DNA from: Agrobacterium vitis
Lineage (GTDB): Bacteria > Pseudomonadota > Alphaproteobacteria > Rhizobiales > Rhizobiaceae
DNA length: 64,000 bases
Direction of reading: 5' to 3'
Assembly (NCBI RefSeq): GCF_014926405.1
Contig: NZ_JACXXJ020000005.1
Location: forward strand, 2,423,001-2,487,000
Position numbers and translations under genes: made by a program. Under the pieces are notes generated by a model. It was not told the origin of the DNA. It saw nothing but the letters and a program-made list of their open reading frames with translations, and did not search any database. Of the stretch, positions 8,810 to 61,649 are shown piece by piece; within the stretch, counting starts at the first letter, position 1; each line of letters begins with the position of its first letter.

Positions 8810-8837
8810 TTTTTTACTGGTGGCTCGAACGCTGGGT

Positions 8838-8946
8838 CTACTGCATAATTCTTTAAACCGAAATCGGTTTAAAGAGAAAAATATGCAGTAGATATAAAGC
8901 GCTACAACGAACCTTTGTGCGCGATATAGGGCGCACAGCGCTGTAG
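8838..8946. repeat. Dispersed two-module palindromic element, copy 1
   Basis: Module 1 (8838-8891) begins CTACTGCATAATT and ends with the near inverse ATATGCAGTAG around a TTTAAACCG/CGGTTTAAA core. Module 2 (about 8900-8946) contains CTACAACGAACC, then GCGCGATATAGGGCGC and ends GCGCTGTAG. Other copies lie at 50027-50132 and 61504-61612, with single modules at 4383-4418 and 36444-36494. It replaces what should be the 5' end of the phosphopantetheinyl transferase relic. Confidence 0.85.
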
Positions 8947-9101: not shown

Positions 9102-9204
9102 AGAGCACAGGACCGAAAAGTTGGAACCGGTTTTCGGATAAATCCGATGCGTAAACAAAACCTTAGAGCATAGTTCCGATTCCTATTTTCGGTCCGATGC
9201 TCTA
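9102..9204. repeat. RIME-like intergenic mosaic element inserted in a gene, copy A
   Basis: About 100 bases with terminal inverted repeats: GAGCACAGGACCGAAAA on the left and the inverse of GAGCATCGGACCGAAAA on the right. Inside is AACCGGTTTTCGG and ATCCGATGCGTAAACAAAA, identical to the copy at 31724-31825. It is flanked by TA on both sides and sits cleanly inside the phosphopantetheinyl transferase relic. Confidence 0.85.
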
Positions 9205-9332
9205 GCCGCCTATCTTGGCTGTGACGACGTCAAGACTACACTTCAACCTAAGCCATTCAGGGGAACGTGCCGTTATTGTCGCCACGGACGCGGACCAAAT
9301 TGGAGTTGATATCGAGCGGCTGCGGGCAAACC

Positions 9333-9357
9333 GGTTCCCACTTTTCAGTCCGAAATC
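9333..9357. repeat. RIME fragment, inverted, at the relic's broken 3' end
   Basis: AAACCGGTTCCCACTTTTCA is the inverse of the conserved GTGGGAACCGGTTT block of the other RIME copies. It directly follows the last recognisable codons (IERLR) of the transferase relic, so a RIME-linked rearrangement probably truncated the gene. Confidence 0.7.
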
Positions 9358-16308: not shown

Positions 16309-18492
16309 TTACAGGCTGTTGACAGATTCCAGCAGGCTGGCGCTGATACCGCTGGTCGAAGAGCTGCCGCCGAGAATGGTCAGCGCGGCATTGGCCGAGG
16401 AGCCGGTATTGTTCTCCAGATCGTACATGGCCGTAAAGCGTTGCAGGAATTTCTTCTGCTTTTCAGGATCACTCAGATCCTTCAGGTCCATTTTCTTCTC
16501 GATGACCTTTTTCTGCTGCTCGATATCCATATTGCTCATATCGCTGGGCAGACTATAGGCGGTGCGGAACACTTCCAGCAGCGCTGTATCGCCGAGAATG
16601 TCATAGGCCGAGGTAATGGTCGACGACATGCGATCCCAGTAAAGGGCAAGGCGCACACCCTGGTCGCTTTCGCCCTGTTCGTTTTCAAGGGTCTGGTGCA
16701 GATAGAGATTTTCGGTGTTAAAGGTCTCACTGCGGTTCTGCACACCATCGGCATTTTCCTGGGAAATCTTGCCGCTACTGTCAAAATTATAGGAGGCGAC
16801 GAATTTCGCATAGCCCTCGTCGGCCTGGGTGTTGGCAAAGCTCTTCGGATCGGTGAGATCAGATGAAAACAACTGCTTGAGCATGTCGTCACTGACATCT
16901 TCCGGGTCGAGCCCCTGCGCTGTCAGGGCAAAATCCACCAGTTTGCGATCCTTGAGCAAATCCGTGACGGATGACACCTTGACGATGTTTTCCTGGTAAT
17001 ATTTGGAATCCTCCTCCGCCGCGGTCTTGGCGTCGGTCTGCTCCTTGCCTTCGAGAAAGCGGGTCTTCTGGACGATATAATCCTTGGCCACTTCGGTAAT
17101 GGTGCGCTCCGATTGGGCCAGAAGCGGCACGTCAGCGGTCCCATCCTCCTTGAAATTGAAGGCGGACGCCAGGCTGATCAGCCGCTCATCCCGGGTCTTG
17201 TTGGCATAGCTCTTGGGATCATTCATATCGCTGGTCAGAACCTTTTTCAGGTCCGCCTTGGAAAACTCGTCCGTTTCGATACCATAGGCCTTCATCACCA
17301 TATCGTAGATTTTCTCATTGCCGAGCAGGTCATCAACCTTGGTAATGGATTTCATCTGCGTGGAATAATAGGTGGTTAGGCTGCTGAGATCCGCTTGGTC
17401 CTGATCATCGTAATTGGTCATATAGCCGCTGGCGGTCTGGGCCAGCTGGGTCTCGCTCTGGGCATTTCCAGCCGTGGCATTGCCGCTGGTGTCGAAGTTG
17501 AACATGGCAGCGATCTTCGCATACTCTCCCTTCACCTTGCCCTGGGTATTGGCATAGCTGTTGGCGTCGTTGAGATCGCTGGTGACGATATTCTCAAAGG
17601 TGGATTTCAGCGTGTTCTTGTCCATGCCCAGCGCTGTCTTCACATAGCTGAACAGCCGCGAATCCCCTGTTATATCCGAGGCCTTGGTGACAGTGGCGAT
17701 CTTTTCCTTGTAGTAAGCGGCTTCGCGCTCGGCCCGGTAGGCGGTCTCGGTGCTGGGAACCTCCTCCAGATAGAGATCTTCCATCTCCGTTTTCTGCTCG
17801 GAGGTCTGGGCCGTCGCGTTTTTCAGCGAACCGTCGGTATTGAAGGAAAAGGCTTTGGCGATATTCAGGTAATCCGACTTGTTGGTGGTCAGCGTATTGA
17901 CGTAACTTGTACTGTCGTTGACATCGCTGGTCAGGACCTTTTTCAAATGGTCGGTGGAATAATATTTGGTGTCGAGCCCATAGGATTCGAGCACGAATTT
18001 GGTCAGACGACTGTTTTTCAAGAGGTCATCGACATTGGTGACCTTGTCGATAGCGGAATCGTAATATTGAACCTCTTCCTTGGCATCGTCGCCTTCGGTG
18101 ACAAGCGATTGCTTGTAAAGGCCAATCACATCCTCTTCCTGCTTGTCGGTCTGGATGTCAGCGGTCTCGGCAGAAAAATTGAAGGACCTGGCAAAATCGC
18201 GATAACGGTCGTCGGCCAGTTTGTTGGCATAGCTGTTTTCGTCGGACAGATCGCTTTCCAGCACCTTTTTCATGAAGGCCTTGGCATAGGTCATGTCTTC
18301 AAGGCCGTTGGCCTTCATCGTATATTGGTAGAGCCGGTCGTCGTTCATGAAGTCGTCGACGGTTTTGACCTTGCCGATATTCTCCTGGTAATATTTCTGC
18401 TCGCGGGCCACCTCAGGCTCCTGAGACACGCGCTTCAGGCTCGCTTTCATATCGCGATTGACAAGATCATAACCGACATAAGTAGACACCAT
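16309..18492 (-). CDS. DUF1217 protein with six repeats (flagellum-associated family)
   Basis: A 727-residue protein made of six copies of a roughly 110-residue unit. Each contains a YY..I..V...DDLL start, a central short helix ending SDLNDP.SYAN, and a closing A..FNF. DUF1217 proteins occur mostly in alphaproteobacterial flagellar gene clusters, usually as shorter proteins; the function is unknown. No flagellar gene is nearby. The ATG at 18492 (MVSTYVGYDLV) fits the family N-terminus and is preceded by GAGGA; an in-frame upstream start would add unrelated residues. No signal peptide or membrane segment is seen. Confidence 0.85.
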   Translation of the reverse strand: MVSTYVGYDLVNRDMKASLKRVSQEPEVAREQKYYQENIGKVKTVDDFMNDDRLYQYTMKANGLEDMTYAKAFMKKVLESDLSDENSYANKLADDRYRDFARSFNFSAETADIQTDKQEEDVIGLYKQSLVTEGDDAKEEVQYYDSAIDKVTNVDDLLKNSRLTKFVLESYGLDTKYYSTDHLKKVLTSDVNDSTSYVNTLTTNKSDYLNIAKAFSFNTDGSLKNATAQTSEQKTEMEDLYLEEVPSTETAYRAEREAAYYKEKIATVTKASDITGDSRLFSYVKTALGMDKNTLKSTFENIVTSDLNDANSYANTQGKVKGEYAKIAAMFNFDTSGNATAGNAQSETQLAQTASGYMTNYDDQDQADLSSLTTYYSTQMKSITKVDDLLGNEKIYDMVMKAYGIETDEFSKADLKKVLTSDMNDPKSYANKTRDERLISLASAFNFKEDGTADVPLLAQSERTITEVAKDYIVQKTRFLEGKEQTDAKTAAEEDSKYYQENIVKVSSVTDLLKDRKLVDFALTAQGLDPEDVSDDMLKQLFSSDLTDPKSFANTQADEGYAKFVASYNFDSSGKISQENADGVQNRSETFNTENLYLHQTLENEQGESDQGVRLALYWDRMSSTITSAYDILGDTALLEVFRTAYSLPSDMSNMDIEQQKKVIEKKMDLKDLSDPEKQKKFLQRFTAMYDLENNTGSSANAALTILGGSSSTSGISASLLESVNSL

Positions 18493-31723: not shown

Positions 31724-31825
31724 AGAGCATCGGACCGAAAAGTGGGAACCGGTTTTCGGATAAATCCGATGCGTAAACAAAAACTGAGAGCATCGTGCTG
31801 ATTCCGGTTTTCTGCACGATGCTTT
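31724..31825. repeat. RIME-like element, copy B
   Basis: GAGCATCGGACCGAAAAGTG and then GGGAACCGGTTTTCGG and AAATCCGATGCGTAAACAAAA match copy A almost base for base. The right half is a separate palindrome (AGAGCATCGTGC...GCACGATGCT). It fills the whole space between the parE stop and the DUF523 start. Confidence 0.85.
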
Positions 31826-32120
31826 AATCAAGCTGGCGTTCCACATCCATGCGTTCATGAAGAACACGGATGATATCGATAATGGCAAGGTCCAGTTTTC
31901 GATAGAAAATCATATGAACACCCACTCTACGCCGACGATAATCCCTTTTGATCCATGATACATCCTCACCGGAATCGGGGAATGCCGCGATTTCCTCAAA
32001 CTTGTCGAAGAGGAGGTTGAGATAGCGCTCAGCCTGTTCATGTGACCAGCGTTGAGTTCCATAGGCCCAAATTTCACGAAGATCCTGCTCTGCGGCAGGG
32101 CGAAGCCGGTACTCACCCAC
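31824..32120 (-). CDS. parE: ParE/RelE-family toxin
   Basis: A 98-residue toxin of the ParE/RelE superfamily; ParE members poison DNA gyrase. The motif pattern is typical: YRLRPAAEQDLREIWAYG, then WSHEQAERYL, AAFPDSGEDV, RRRRVGVHMIFYR and a C-terminal IDIIRVLHERMDVE. The GTG at 32120 starts four bases after the antitoxin stop, the usual operon order. An ATG-initiated longer reading is not needed. Its stop abuts a RIME element. Confidence 0.9.
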   Translation of the reverse strand: MGEYRLRPAAEQDLREIWAYGTQRWSHEQAERYLNLLFDKFEEIAAFPDSGEDVSWIKRDYRRRRVGVHMIFYRKLDLAIIDIIRVLHERMDVERQLD

Positions 32121-32494: not shown

Positions 32495-35032
32495 TTACCC
32501 GGCGATTTTGGAGAAATCCGCCACCGTGCCGGTTGCCTCGCGGATGGCCTTCAGCAGAGCCAGGCGATTGGCGCGGATGGCGGCGTCCTCGTCATTGACC
32601 AGCACATCCTCGAAGAACCGATCCACTGGCGCACGCAGGCTGGACAGTGCCTGCATGGCGGAGCGGAAATCTTCCTTGGCCACGGCCTCGGCTGCGGATT
32701 GGGTCGCCTGGGTGATGGCGGCATAAAGCGCCTTTTCGGCGTCGAGTGTCAGCAGCGCCTCGGACACGCCATCGGCCACCACCGTCCCCTTCTTTTCTTC
32801 CGCTGCCAGCAATTGCGTGGCCCGCTTGGTACCCGCCAACAGGTTCTTGCCGTCTTCGGAGGTGATGAAAGCCGTGAGCGCTTCGGCGCGGCGGGCGACC
32901 ATCAGCAGGTCGTCGGCGGCAGAGAAAGCCCCCTCACCCTGTGCTGCATGACCTTGCCGGACAGCCGCACTCCCCTCTCCCCGCTGGGGAGAGGAGGCCG
33001 ACACCGCATCGCCAAGCTCCCTCTTCTCCCCGGCGGGGAGAAGGTGGCCCGCAGGGCCGGATGAGGGGGCGGCGAGCACAGCGTCAATGATGTCGTGACG
33101 AGCGCCTTGGTCGCGGAGGTAGACTTTCAGGCGGTCGTGGAAGAACTCGATAATCGAGACACATACGTCAGATAAAGCTGCAATATTCCACCCACCCTGG
33201 GCCGTTGTCATGATGACAGTCGCTTTTTCTGCCCGCGCTCTAAAACGCTCATGTAGAACAGCTTCGGCGTACTCTTCCCACTCGGTTTCGTAAGACGTTA
33301 TGTCATGCGGAACAACACTGGAATTGAAATAGACGAAACCCTCTTCTCGTCCGACGACCCACGTTGATTTCTGGGCTTGGTGAAGCGCAACATATGCTGT
33401 TGTTATAACATCCAACAACGGCAACCGCACATTCTTCTCCAATAAAATCCGCACCACACCCAACGCCGCCCTTCGCAGCGCAAACGGGTCCTTCGATCCT
33501 GTCGGCTTCTCGTCAATCGCCCAGAACCCAACCAGCGTATCCAGCTTATCGGCCAGCGCCACCGTAATCGCCACCTTGTCTTCCGGCAGGCGATCCGATG
33601 GTCCTTGCGGCTTGTAATGATCCTCGATGGCAGCCGCCACGCTTTCGTGTTCACCCTGAAGCGCTGCATATTTACGACCCATCAAACCTTGCAGTTCCGG
33701 GAATTCGCCGACCGCTTCGGTGCGCAAATCGGCCTTGGCCAGCACCACGGCGCGATCAACTAGTGCTTCGTCAGCACCGACGACAGGAGCCAGAACCTTG
33801 GCCAAGGCGCGGATGCGGGCGACCCGCTCGCCTTGCGTGCCGAGCTTGGCGTGGAACGTGACGTTCAGCGCGTCCAGCTTGGCCATCCGCTGGTCGAGCG
33901 GCTTTTTCAGGTCGAGGTCGAATTTTGCGGCAGAGGCTTCAAGCGTTTCCAGATCCGGCAGATTGCCCTGGTCGCGCTTCCAGAAATGCAGGGCGTCGGA
34001 CAGGCGGGCGCGCACCACCTTGCCATTGCCGTGGATGATTTCCGCGCCGCCATCATGGGCGGAGATGTTGGAGATCAGGATGAAGTGGTTGGAGAGCTTT
34101 TCACTCTCGCCAATTGGCCGGGTGACGAAGCATTTCTGGTTGGTCTTGATGGTCAGCCGGATGATTTCCGAGGGGATCGACAGGTAATCGGCCTCAAACG
34201 TGCCGAGCAGCACCTGCGGATATTCCACCAGGCCGGACACTTCTTCCAGCAGGCCCTCATCTTCCACCAGGTCCAGCCCGTTGGCAAAGGCGATGTCGCG
34301 GGCGTCGTGCAGGATAATGTCCTTGCGCCGTTCGGCATCGAGGATCACCTTGGCCTTTTCGAGGCTCGACACATAGTCGTCGAAGCGCCGCACGGAAATG
34401 GCCTCCGGCGCGTGGAACCGATGGCCATAGGTGATGTTGGAGGCGGTGATTCCGTCGATTTCGAAGGGAATGATCGCCACTTCGTCATGCTCGGAGCCGA
34501 AAGTACAGAGAATGGATTGCAACGGCCGCACCCAGCGCAGGCTTTCCGACCCCTTGCCCTCGATGCCGCCATAGCTTGAACCCTTTGGCATGGATGCAGC
34601 ACCGGAGCGCATATCAACCGGCCAAGGGAAATTGCGGATGATGCGCGGCATCACCTCGGTGATGATCTCTTCGGCTGACCGGCCCGGCTTGTCGATCATC
34701 GCGACGTAGAAATCGCCCTTCTTGGGATCGGTCTTGACCACGGCCTGATCGATGGAGGCAAGCCCCGCGCCGCGCAAAAAGCCCTCAATGGCCTTTTCCG
34801 GCGCCGAGACGCTTGGTCCCTTACGCTCTTCCTTCACATCGGCGGACCGGGCCGTCAGTCCGCGCATGTCCAGCACCAGCCGGCGCGGCGTCCAATATTC
34901 CCGCGCACCTTCATAGGTCAGGCCCGCATCGACAAGTGCATCGGTGACCAGCTTTTTCAGATCACCCGCCGCCTTGCGCTGCATACGTGCGGGGATTTCC
35001 TCGGAGCGAAGTTCAAGCAGAAGATCGGGCAT
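32495..35032 (-). CDS. glyS: Glycyl-tRNA synthetase beta subunit with two extra segments
   Basis: The beta subunit of the tetrameric glycyl-tRNA synthetase, here 845 residues against roughly 700 in relatives. The N-terminus ([19 protein letters not shown]), core (TNQKCFVTR) and HD-like region ([27 protein letters not shown]) are normal. Two in-frame additions stand out. One is an AT-richer segment of about 85-90 residues (about 540-628) between LPLLDVI and [14 protein letters not shown]. The other, about 50 residues (655-705), is coded by a palindromic repeat otherwise found between genes. Family sequence resumes at [20 protein letters not shown]. Both lie in the C-terminal half that contacts tRNA. 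Confidence 0.93.
32935..33072. repeat. Palindromic repeat embedded in glyS
   Basis: Contains two hairpins: CCTCTCCCC/GGGGAGAGG near 32974-32993 and CTTCTCCCC/GGGGAGAAG near 33022-33042, followed by GTGGCCCGCAGGGCCGGATG. The same CTTCTCCCC units occur between genes at 49829-49995. Here the repeat is read through in frame as part of glyS. Confidence 0.85.
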
Positions 35033-36443: not shown

Positions 36444-36494
36444 CTGCTGCATAATTCCTTAAATCGTTTCCGGCTTAAGGGCTTATGCAAGTAG
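36444..36494. repeat. Dispersed palindromic element, module 1 alone
   Basis: CTGCTGCATAATTCC...GGGCTTATGCAAGTAG with a TTAAATCGTTTCCGGCTTAA core. It matches module 1 of the copies at 8838, 50080 and 61560. It lies between the DUF4328 gene and aroA. Confidence 0.75.
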
Positions 36495-49724: not shown

Positions 49725-49828
49725 AAGCCTTTTACCAACAGCATGACAGCGCCGTGGGTTTTATAAAACGCCACAGGACACGACGCAAACGTCTCTCGGC
49801 TTTTCCGCCCCCTCTTGCCTCTGCCGCC

Positions 49829-49995
49829 ACCTTCTCCCCGATGGGGAGAAGAGACCTGCGGCACCCTCTTGTGCCTTATACGCGCGGCAAAAGCCGATAA
49901 ACCCCTTAGCCCGCAGCCTCAGGATGAGGCTCAGTCCTCTCGTGTTGACCTCTTCTCCCCAGCGGGGAGAAGTCCCCGGCAGGGGGATGAGGGGG
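49829..49995. repeat. CTTCTCCCC palindromic repeat block
   Basis: Two hairpins, ACCTTCTCCCC-GAT-GGGGAGAAG and CTTCTCCCC-AGC-GGGGAGAAG, in opposite-facing surroundings (the second followed by GGGGGATGAGGGGGG). They are the same units that sit inside glyS near 32935-33072. Confidence 0.8.
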
Positions 49996-50026
49996 GCGAA
50001 GCCAATTCATCAAGGTGCGTCGTGTA

Positions 50027-50132
50027 CTCTACAGCGCCGTGCGCCATATATGGCGTACAAAGGACGCGCTAACACTATAAATCTACTGCATAATTCTCTC
50101 CTTAAATCGATTCCGGTTTAAAGAATTATGCA
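50027..50132. repeat. Dispersed two-module palindromic element, copy 2
   Basis: CTCTACAGCGCCGTGCGCC, ATATATGGCG and GACGCGCT (module 2), a short ACTATAAAT linker, then CTACTGCATAATTC...AAAGAATTATGCA (module 1). It is the same as copy 1 but with the modules in the opposite order, that is, inverted, and lies just before rnhB. Confidence 0.85.
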
Positions 50133-61475: not shown

Positions 61476-61507
61476 AAACCGGTTTCCACTTTTTCTGGAC
61501 ATGCTCT
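61476..61507. repeat. RIME fragment, inverted
   Basis: AAACCGGTTTCCACTTTTTC then ATGCTC is the inverse of the GAGCAT...GAAAAGTGG-AACCGGTTT left end of the full RIME copies. It directly abuts the two-module palindrome. Confidence 0.7.
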
Positions 61508-61612
61508 ACAGCGCCGTGCGCCCTATATGGCGACAAAGGTTCGCTGTAGTGCTTTATATCCGCTGCATAATTTCTCCTTAAATCGATTCCGATTTCAAAA
61601 ATTATGCAGTAG
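61504..61612. repeat. Dispersed two-module palindromic element, copy 3
   Basis: CTCTACAGCGCCGTGCGCC, CTATATGGCG, CAAAGGTTCGCTGTAG (module 2), then a GCTTTATAT linker and GCTGCATAATTTC...AAAATTATGCAGTAG (module 1). Same module order as copy 2. It ends about 38 bases before the SMP-30 start. Confidence 0.85.
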
Positions 61613-61649
61613 ACAAGAGAGCCACAGCGATTGGATGAAGGAGACCATC

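Follow-up and report, generated by a model that had tools for sequence, protein, structure and literature searches.

In-frame palindromic repeats in the beta subunit of glycyl-tRNA synthetase of Agrobacterium vitis and other Rhizobiaceae

The glyS locus and its in-frame insert

The window, a stretch of 64,000 nucleotides of Agrobacterium vitis DNA, is located on contig C5 (3.79 Mb) of a 6.4-Mb genome that belongs to the Agrobacterium (Allorhizobium) vitis complex. It contains glyS, the gene for the beta subunit of glycyl-tRNA synthetase, and an intergenic palindromic element (Table 1). The closest named GlyS, encoded on chromosome 1 of A. vitis CG78, is 97% identical to the protein of the window. 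Pfam assigned residues 4–654 to tRNA_synt_2f and residues 736–832 to DALR_1. The segment designated site C is located between the two domains according to these match coordinates.

In an alignment of 30 GlyS loci, the window sequence reads HDIIDAVL, followed by 52 residues and then by family sequence; the neighbours are short at this position. In relatives whose site is empty, the residues TPE or TPD stand in place of the insert, a net difference of +147 nt. An earlier note on this DNA had described positions 32920–33072 as an intergenic palindromic repeat that is read in frame in an essential gene, with family sequence resuming directly behind it. The comparison with empty-site relatives moved the borders to 32918–33073, a difference of at most 2 nt, and family sequence does pick up directly past the insert. 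The reading as an intergenic palindromic repeat in frame in an essential gene is supported. Across 110 loci, site C comprised 9 nt in 92 cases, 12 nt in 7 and at least 54 nt in 11. Two of these 11 loci duplicate another row, and two have just 54 nt and no strong fold, namely L114 and L023, the latter from another taxonomic family. The short piece in L114 looks like a remnant.

Both hairpins of the insert are GC-rich. The predicted RNA fold of positions 32910–33085 was stronger than that of 200 out of 200 dinucleotide shuffles (z -3.1). A target-site duplication was not demonstrated: the motif GCCGC is present on either side of the insert, with extra bases at the right end. Rfam 15 had no match within the window at the gathering score, and an identity of the insert as a known Rfam RNA was rejected on this basis.

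Table 1. Features of the glyS locus and the related intergenic element, in window positions.
Feature	Position	Strand	Basis
glyS, glycyl-tRNA synthetase beta subunit, 845 aa	32495..35032	-	ORF; Pfam PF02092 (E 9.8e-172) and PF05746
Site C, in-frame palindromic repeat insert, residues 654–705, 156 nt	32918..33073	-	110-locus comparison, alignment, peptide search
Hairpin 2 of the glyS insert, CCTCTCCCC...GGGGAGAGG, repeat family D7	32974..32994	-	Repeat analysis
Hairpin 1 of the glyS insert, CTTCTCCCC...GGGGAGAAG, core of the intergenic copies	33023..33043	-	Repeat analysis and genome pattern
Hypervariable low-GC segment of GlyS, residues 531–629, between loops B and C	33146..33442	-	Identity and GC comparisons
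Site B loop, about residues 413–425, empty in the window; in-frame palindromes in relatives	33758..33796	-	
Site A loop, about residues 305–313, empty in the window; in-frame palindromes in relatives	34094..34120	-	
Intergenic element with the same hairpins, two inverted half-elements (I4)	49803..50000	.	Repeat analysis; crossed by short ORFs only

Copies of the repeat in the genome

The arms of the intergenic element in the window (49803–49853 and 49950–50000) are 51 nt long and 80% complementary. Its hairpin at 49949–49972 matches hairpin 1 of the glyS insert with 96% over 24 nt. The likeness between the insert and this copy does not extend beyond the hairpins and short flanks. Genome-wide, the strict hairpin pattern CTTCTCCCC-N(2-8)-GGGGAGAAG was present at 26 places in 6.4 Mb, all on C5, and the reversed control gave 0. 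A looser hairpin pattern had 67 places, of which 50 were listed.

An nhmmer search with the glyS insert had as targets 39 genome loci chosen by the hairpin patterns and the rest of the window. It yielded 14 matches with E values of at most 1e-3, spread over 11 places, against 0 for 20 shuffled queries. Chance similarity of the insert to the repeat was rejected by the shuffle controls for fold and nhmmer. The intergenic copy of the window did not reach the threshold of 1e-3 in this search, which counts against reading the insert as a copy of the element. Full copies consist of two inverted half-elements with about 178–191 nt between the trimmed ends (11 copies; two of 13 were dropped, as the two hairpins were not found in them). 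The element resembles a miniature inverted-repeat transposable element (MITE) in its terminal inverted repeats, with arms 80% complementary, and in a size within 70–300 bp, as judged on the 11 full copies.

A second repeat family was found by its core CTCCCCCTCAAGGGGGGAG, with at most 2 mismatches. The genome has at least 21 places of the glyS-insert family and at least 24 of the CTCCCCCTCAAGGGGGGAG family. All 45 places were checked for ORFs spanning the element, and longer ORFs were analysed with Pfam. A conserved ORF around the element with domains on both sides was present at 2 of the 45 places: one is glyS, the other encodes a 1244-aa biotin-dependent carboxylase. In the carboxylase (L234, G000:C5:1251472-1251577), an in-frame palindrome of the CTCCCCCTCAAGGGGGGAG family is located between the Pfam domains CT_A_B and CT_C_D.

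Several candidates were not counted. The loose hairpin match at G000:C1:55904 (L133) looks like ordinary coding sequence. Among ten longer ORFs across other copies, Pfam detected no domain in seven. L046, L266 and L279 have the element at the ORF start, outside the domain, and in L239 the domain match is confined to the region downstream of the element. L231, L232, L235–L238, L240–L242 and L297 were judged by eye as chance frames by appearance.

The insert within the A. vitis group

The glyS insert is present in the window genome, A. vitis CG78 (L053), A. vitis S00303 (L054), A. taibaishanense (L084) and the genomes G438 and G458. The insert peptides of G438 and G458 are identical to that of the window. 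When 60 genomes of the genus were searched with the insert peptide, it or a variant was detected in glyS of G000, G011, G438, G439, G457 (right border of the insert only), G458 and G461. A. vitis NCPPB 3554 (L055) lacks the insert, so the possibility raised earlier that all relatives carry it does not hold. The insert is not strain specific either: several genomes of the A. vitis group share it, and the site recurs across the family. It belongs to a clade and is one example of a pattern that recurs. Rhizobium sp. CG5 (L020/L067) has a different element at the same glyS site, and R. giardinii H152 (L115) and Rhizobium sp. Leaf371 (L122) have further elements at site C. In A. vitis S00303, a further copy of the element was observed just downstream of glyS (about 3915–4186 of L054).

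Recurrence at site C across the family

A 104-aa query with an empty site found a match in 383 of 394 family genomes. Coordinates were re-searched for 70 genomes, 67 of them with two matches, and 69 were retrieved. The site C count covers 66 two-match genomes, which were picked by eye, the single-match genomes G041 and G122, 30 other single-match genomes, and G000 and G011. G227, G260 and G269 also have two matches and stand outside the count, together with G182, in which the glyS halves are on two contigs, and G070, which ends at a contig edge.

All 66 two-match genomes have 63–363 nt exactly at site C; an empty site has 12 nt on the same scale. Every one of these inserts has a length that is a multiple of three and no stop codon, and the frame was no criterion of the search. 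Together with G000 and G011, site C inserts are present in at least 68 of 383 family genomes. The single-match genomes G041 and G122 have 48 and 24 nt at site C, and none of the 30 other single-match genomes has 45 nt or more. A fold better than that of codon shuffles at z < -2 was predicted for 57 of the 66 inserts and for 66 of 78 rows when all insert rows are included. The remaining nine inserts (12 rows) fold no better than shuffles at this threshold, and decay or another origin is possible for those nine.

The insert peptides at site C belong to several families, for example ISPLEGEMSAKPTEGG...SPSTLRGEG and LPLDGGGRAEGAGGG...HPTPALRADPPHQGEGG. In G193, the insert peptide has at least 85 matches in its own genome among the candidates scored, with both strands and half-elements counted. 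The borders are more uniform than the inserts. An asparagine precedes the DDLL motif in 63 of 66 carriers, the insert starts with alanine or serine in 62 of 66, and a leucine precedes it in all 71 carriers parsed, some rows being unparsed. In some genera, empty congeners have ITP where carriers have the leucine (DAVITP versus DAVL). The shared flanks could be due to convergent helix capping, an old common opening or an exchange of glyS segments. Their likeness among carriers, and their difference from empty sites, means that a common origin, or spread by recombination, is possible for part of the gains. The recurrence in glyS looks far above the expectation from a random filter acting on all genes, a point against filtered insertion as the explanation.

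Loops A and B

Two other loops of GlyS, empty in the window, have in-frame palindromes in relatives. Loop A follows the motif QKCFVTR; loop B is located between helices ahead of the LAKADL motif. Internal insertions, defined as columns filled in less than 60% of rows, were analysed in 200 distinct GlyS rows. Those of at least 15 residues were confined to loops A, B and C or the hypervariable segment, except for one row near position 537. A length of at least 12 residues above the median was found in 32 of 200 rows at loop A and in 37 of 200 at loop B. Regular expressions, which left some inserts as other, assigned a repeat family to 23 of the 32 rows at loop A and to 23 of the 37 at loop B. 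About ten rows at loop B look like ordinary length variants. Fifteen rows are long at all three sites, for example L154, L156, L177 and L214.

Parsimony on a FastTree phylogeny of the core (197 rows) required a minimum of 23, 19 and 21 presence/absence changes at sites A, B and C, respectively; the set is enriched for site C carriers, and gains and losses are pooled. On the GlyS chain of PDB 7yse, the sites were mapped by eye to about residues 288–300 (A), 377–385 (B) and just after 550 (C).

The hypervariable segment

The segment between loops B and C differs strongly even in closely related proteins. For 31 row pairs whose cores are at least 95% identical, the segment had a median identity of 24%; distant pairs had 20%, and a core control stretch had 97%. 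A different blastp segment type was assigned in 180 of 217 pairs with at least 88% core identity, and some types are common to rows that are only 68–74% identical in the core. The GC content of the segment is 51.5%, compared with 63.9% in the N-terminal core, and 94 of 98 rows had the lower value in the segment. In five pairs whose segments are unlike, identity was high in the flanks and fell towards background inside the segment, with sharp borders in the pairs inspected. In G458, the insert peptide equals that of the window in all 52 residues, and the hypervariable segment is unrelated.

The segment looks like a set of exchanged cassettes in an essential enzyme and is not obviously derived from repeats. 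Five hypervariable peptides had no match below E 0.07 in PHROG, and four had no match above the cut-off in Pfam. A GlyS search of a phage collection found only distant GlyS-like matches with less than 60% identity, in 15 records.

In-frame elements in other genes

GlyS is not the only protein with such elements. The dihydrolipoamide acetyltransferase (PDH-E2) L228 has an element in the linker that joins the lipoyl domain to the E3-binding domain, and L281, L285 and L298 are further PDH-E2 cases. In the HyuA protein L230, the element is located between the N-terminal and main domains, with L301 and L286 as further cases. Two in-frame elements are present in L229, a class I tRNA synthetase whose sequence suggests IleRS, and one each in the sulfite-reductase-like protein L233 and the UvrD-type helicase L299. 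The names of L281, L285, L286, L298, L299 and L301 come from reading the sequence, not from a family search. A placement between domains was common where Pfam was run. The PDH-E2, HyuA, IleRS and UvrD-type cases come from other members of the family; for PDH-E2 and HyuA, several genomes were seen to carry elements in about the same linker.

A search of 199 genomes with a composed peptide, in which at most 35 candidates were scored per genome, gave 35 rows, 16 of them with a frame of at least 400 aa. By reading, the 16 rows are five glyS, four PDH-E2, four HyuA/B (from three genomes), one IleRS, one UvrD-like protein and one apparently spurious frame. The share of glyS in these rows is biased because the query was composed from GlyS inserts and the candidates were scored in part.

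Constraint and reading frame

The dN/dS of the insert, based on 53 codons only, was 0.26, 0.29, 0.35, 0.38, 0.62 and 1.34 in the six pairs of four A. vitis-group genomes. The flanks of the insert had 0.04–0.07 in the same pairs. Protein constraint on the insert is weak. In all six pairs, dS in the insert is below that of the flanks, which hints at stem conservation or homogenisation and not at pure neutrality.

The frame in which related elements are read differs between species, as seen for the window frame and ALRAPSPRERGEG in R. giardinii (L115). This argues against selection for one peptide. The 11 full-length copies in the window's genome have 19 open frames out of 66. Multiplied by one third for a fitting length, roughly one insertion in ten would leave the ORF open.

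Origin and persistence of the inserts

It is likely that MITE-like intergenic palindromes insert widely, and that permissive surface linkers keep and translate the copies that happen to be in frame. The source would be a short, non-autonomous palindromic element that is normally intergenic; homology of the insert to the genome copies identifies the repeat. Such elements are probably mobile, and spread by transposition is a plausible route. With empty relatives on one side and carriers on the other, the landing may date back to an ancestor from which the A. vitis group descends. The position hit would be the linker that joins the catalytic/HD part of the GlyS beta subunit to its anticodon-binding (DALR) part. 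By chance, length and frame would have left the ORF open, as it is today, so that the element could be transcribed and translated. The product would be a loop of about 50 residues, rich in Gly, Ala, Ser and Glu, probably disordered and tolerated in a stable protein without clear benefit. The relaxed constraint is consistent with a nearly neutral loop. Selection would act as a filter, and essential genes would keep only copies in permissive surface loops. This filter may explain why the three GlyS loops and the linkers of a few multidomain proteins were hit repeatedly by unrelated families. Recurrence and the variety of element families at one site are as observed above.

The number of insertions behind this pattern can be viewed differently. 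Instead of many independent insertions, one or few ancient openings of the site may have been followed by replacement of the element in place and by horizontal exchange of glyS segments. Carriers share the pattern DAVL-A/S...N-DDLL even where empty congeners read DAVITP, and recombination beside the site is evident from G458 with its combination of the window's insert peptide and another hypervariable segment. However, several element families occupy one site, eight genera include both carriers and empty genomes (the g115 insert being short with a weak fold), and the core tree has 21 changes at site C, although gains and losses are pooled in this number. A history with few openings appears unlikely.

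Inserts may also be favoured in GlyS as an adaptive decoration, which is rather improbable. As long, flexible loops they might keep an antagonist, for example a phage protein or a bacteriocin, away from the enzyme. Alternatively, the hairpins in the mRNA might make ribosomes pause at the borders of domains, which would help the protein to fold or set its expression. The hits at three loops, the frequency of site C inserts (at least 68 of 383 genomes) and the position of site C between two Pfam domains fit a function, and a hypervariable low-GC segment between sites B and C would be expected for a surface under diversifying pressure. But the peptide is not conserved, frames differ, segments at site C vary from 63 to 363 nt, 30 other single-match genomes live with an empty site C, and other genes carry elements too. 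In its most specific form, Rhizobiaceae GlyS would be a surface under diversifying pressure from an antagonist, with palindromes as flexible shields in three loops and a low-GC segment that is replaced between species. The chance of this is small. If true, loops and segment would change what the antagonist sees and leave catalysis untouched.

Very improbable is a removal or skipping of the hairpin by RNA processing or ribosomal bypassing, with GlyS made without the insert. The inserts do contain strong hairpins, but all 66 keep the length modulo three and have no stop codon, which would be needless in a skipped segment. Since every insert read is in frame, the segment is argued to be translated, and bypassing or splicing was rejected. 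An assembly or annotation artefact, considered in the earlier note, is practically negligible: repeats can cause misassembly, and G182 has its glyS halves on two contigs, but at least five other genomes carry the insert independently, which rules out an assembly error, and these include CG78 with a chromosome recorded as complete sequence.

Coding palindromes have been described in Rickettsia and in scattered species that have REPs. GlyS, an essential enzyme, offers a natural series of several element families at three loops in dozens of genomes, and congeneric genomes supply empty alleles. With this series it can be tested directly whether selfish DNA can routinely give rise to new protein loops, what frames and what loops a protein accepts, and if the inserts remain neutral. 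Such segments should be taken into account when GlyS of the family is annotated or placed in phylogenies.

Relation to known repeat systems

The principle is known from Rickettsia palindromic elements (RPE), intragenic REPs and enterobacterial repeats, and the hosts and elements described here appear to be new. Osteras et al. in 1995 reportedly described RIME, the Rhizobium-specific intergenic mosaic elements. The likeness to RIME, as repeated intergenic elements of rhizobia, is by name only.

RPE are short palindromes present between genes and in frame in conserved protein genes (Ogata et al. 2000; PMC2229807, in the part on these elements). The same part of this review states that the product of an RPE-bearing gmk is translated and active. 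The elements in glyS resemble RPE as in-frame coding palindromes that are absent from the protein of relatives and have many genome copies, mainly between genes. They differ in their hosts and probably in their sequences, and also in that three loops of a single enzyme have received elements of several families, across dozens of genomes. The analogy to RPE drawn in the earlier note was apt, with the same principle in new hosts and elements.

Intragenic REPs of the GTAG and CGTC families are palindromes in ORFs, including those of tRNA synthetases and UvrD/Rep helicases, and the recB gene of Xanthomonas has a REP at about the same site in two species (PMC3733652, sections on intragenic REPs). 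REPs are 20–40 bp long and are tagged by GTAG or CGTC at one of their ends (PMC3733652, same sections). Full copies of the present element have about 190 nt, and the glyS insert has neither tag on either strand. The words Agrobacterium and RIME are absent from the main text of PMC3733652. ERIC/RU, NEMIS and other bacterial MITEs are small non-autonomous repeats with open frames that are fused to protein genes (Delihas 2007, PMC2759123; PMC2229807, in the parts on these repeats). They are other elements in other hosts, and the same parts of PMC2759123 and PMC2229807 report no single essential enzyme in which such repeats landed repeatedly. Searches of the open-access literature, with most subscription journals outside this scope, returned no paper with a title or abstract on in-frame palindromes in glyS or other genes of Rhizobiaceae. 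The earlier remark that such elements seem little described in rhizobia agrees with these searches.

Other repeats in the window

The window has further repeats. Another dispersed family (CTACAGCGCCGTGCGC... and TTTAAACCGAAATCGG types) is present at 8836–8904, 36454–36489, 50027–50132 and 61504–61614, with copies that are 64–92% alike. Several copies of 35–70 nt are located at 16832–18396 with a spacing of about 330–370 nt (D1, D2 and D9), probably within one or more coding sequences. A 103-nt repeat at 9102–9204 and 31724–31826 is 86% identical, and short inverted copies are present at 9328–9353.
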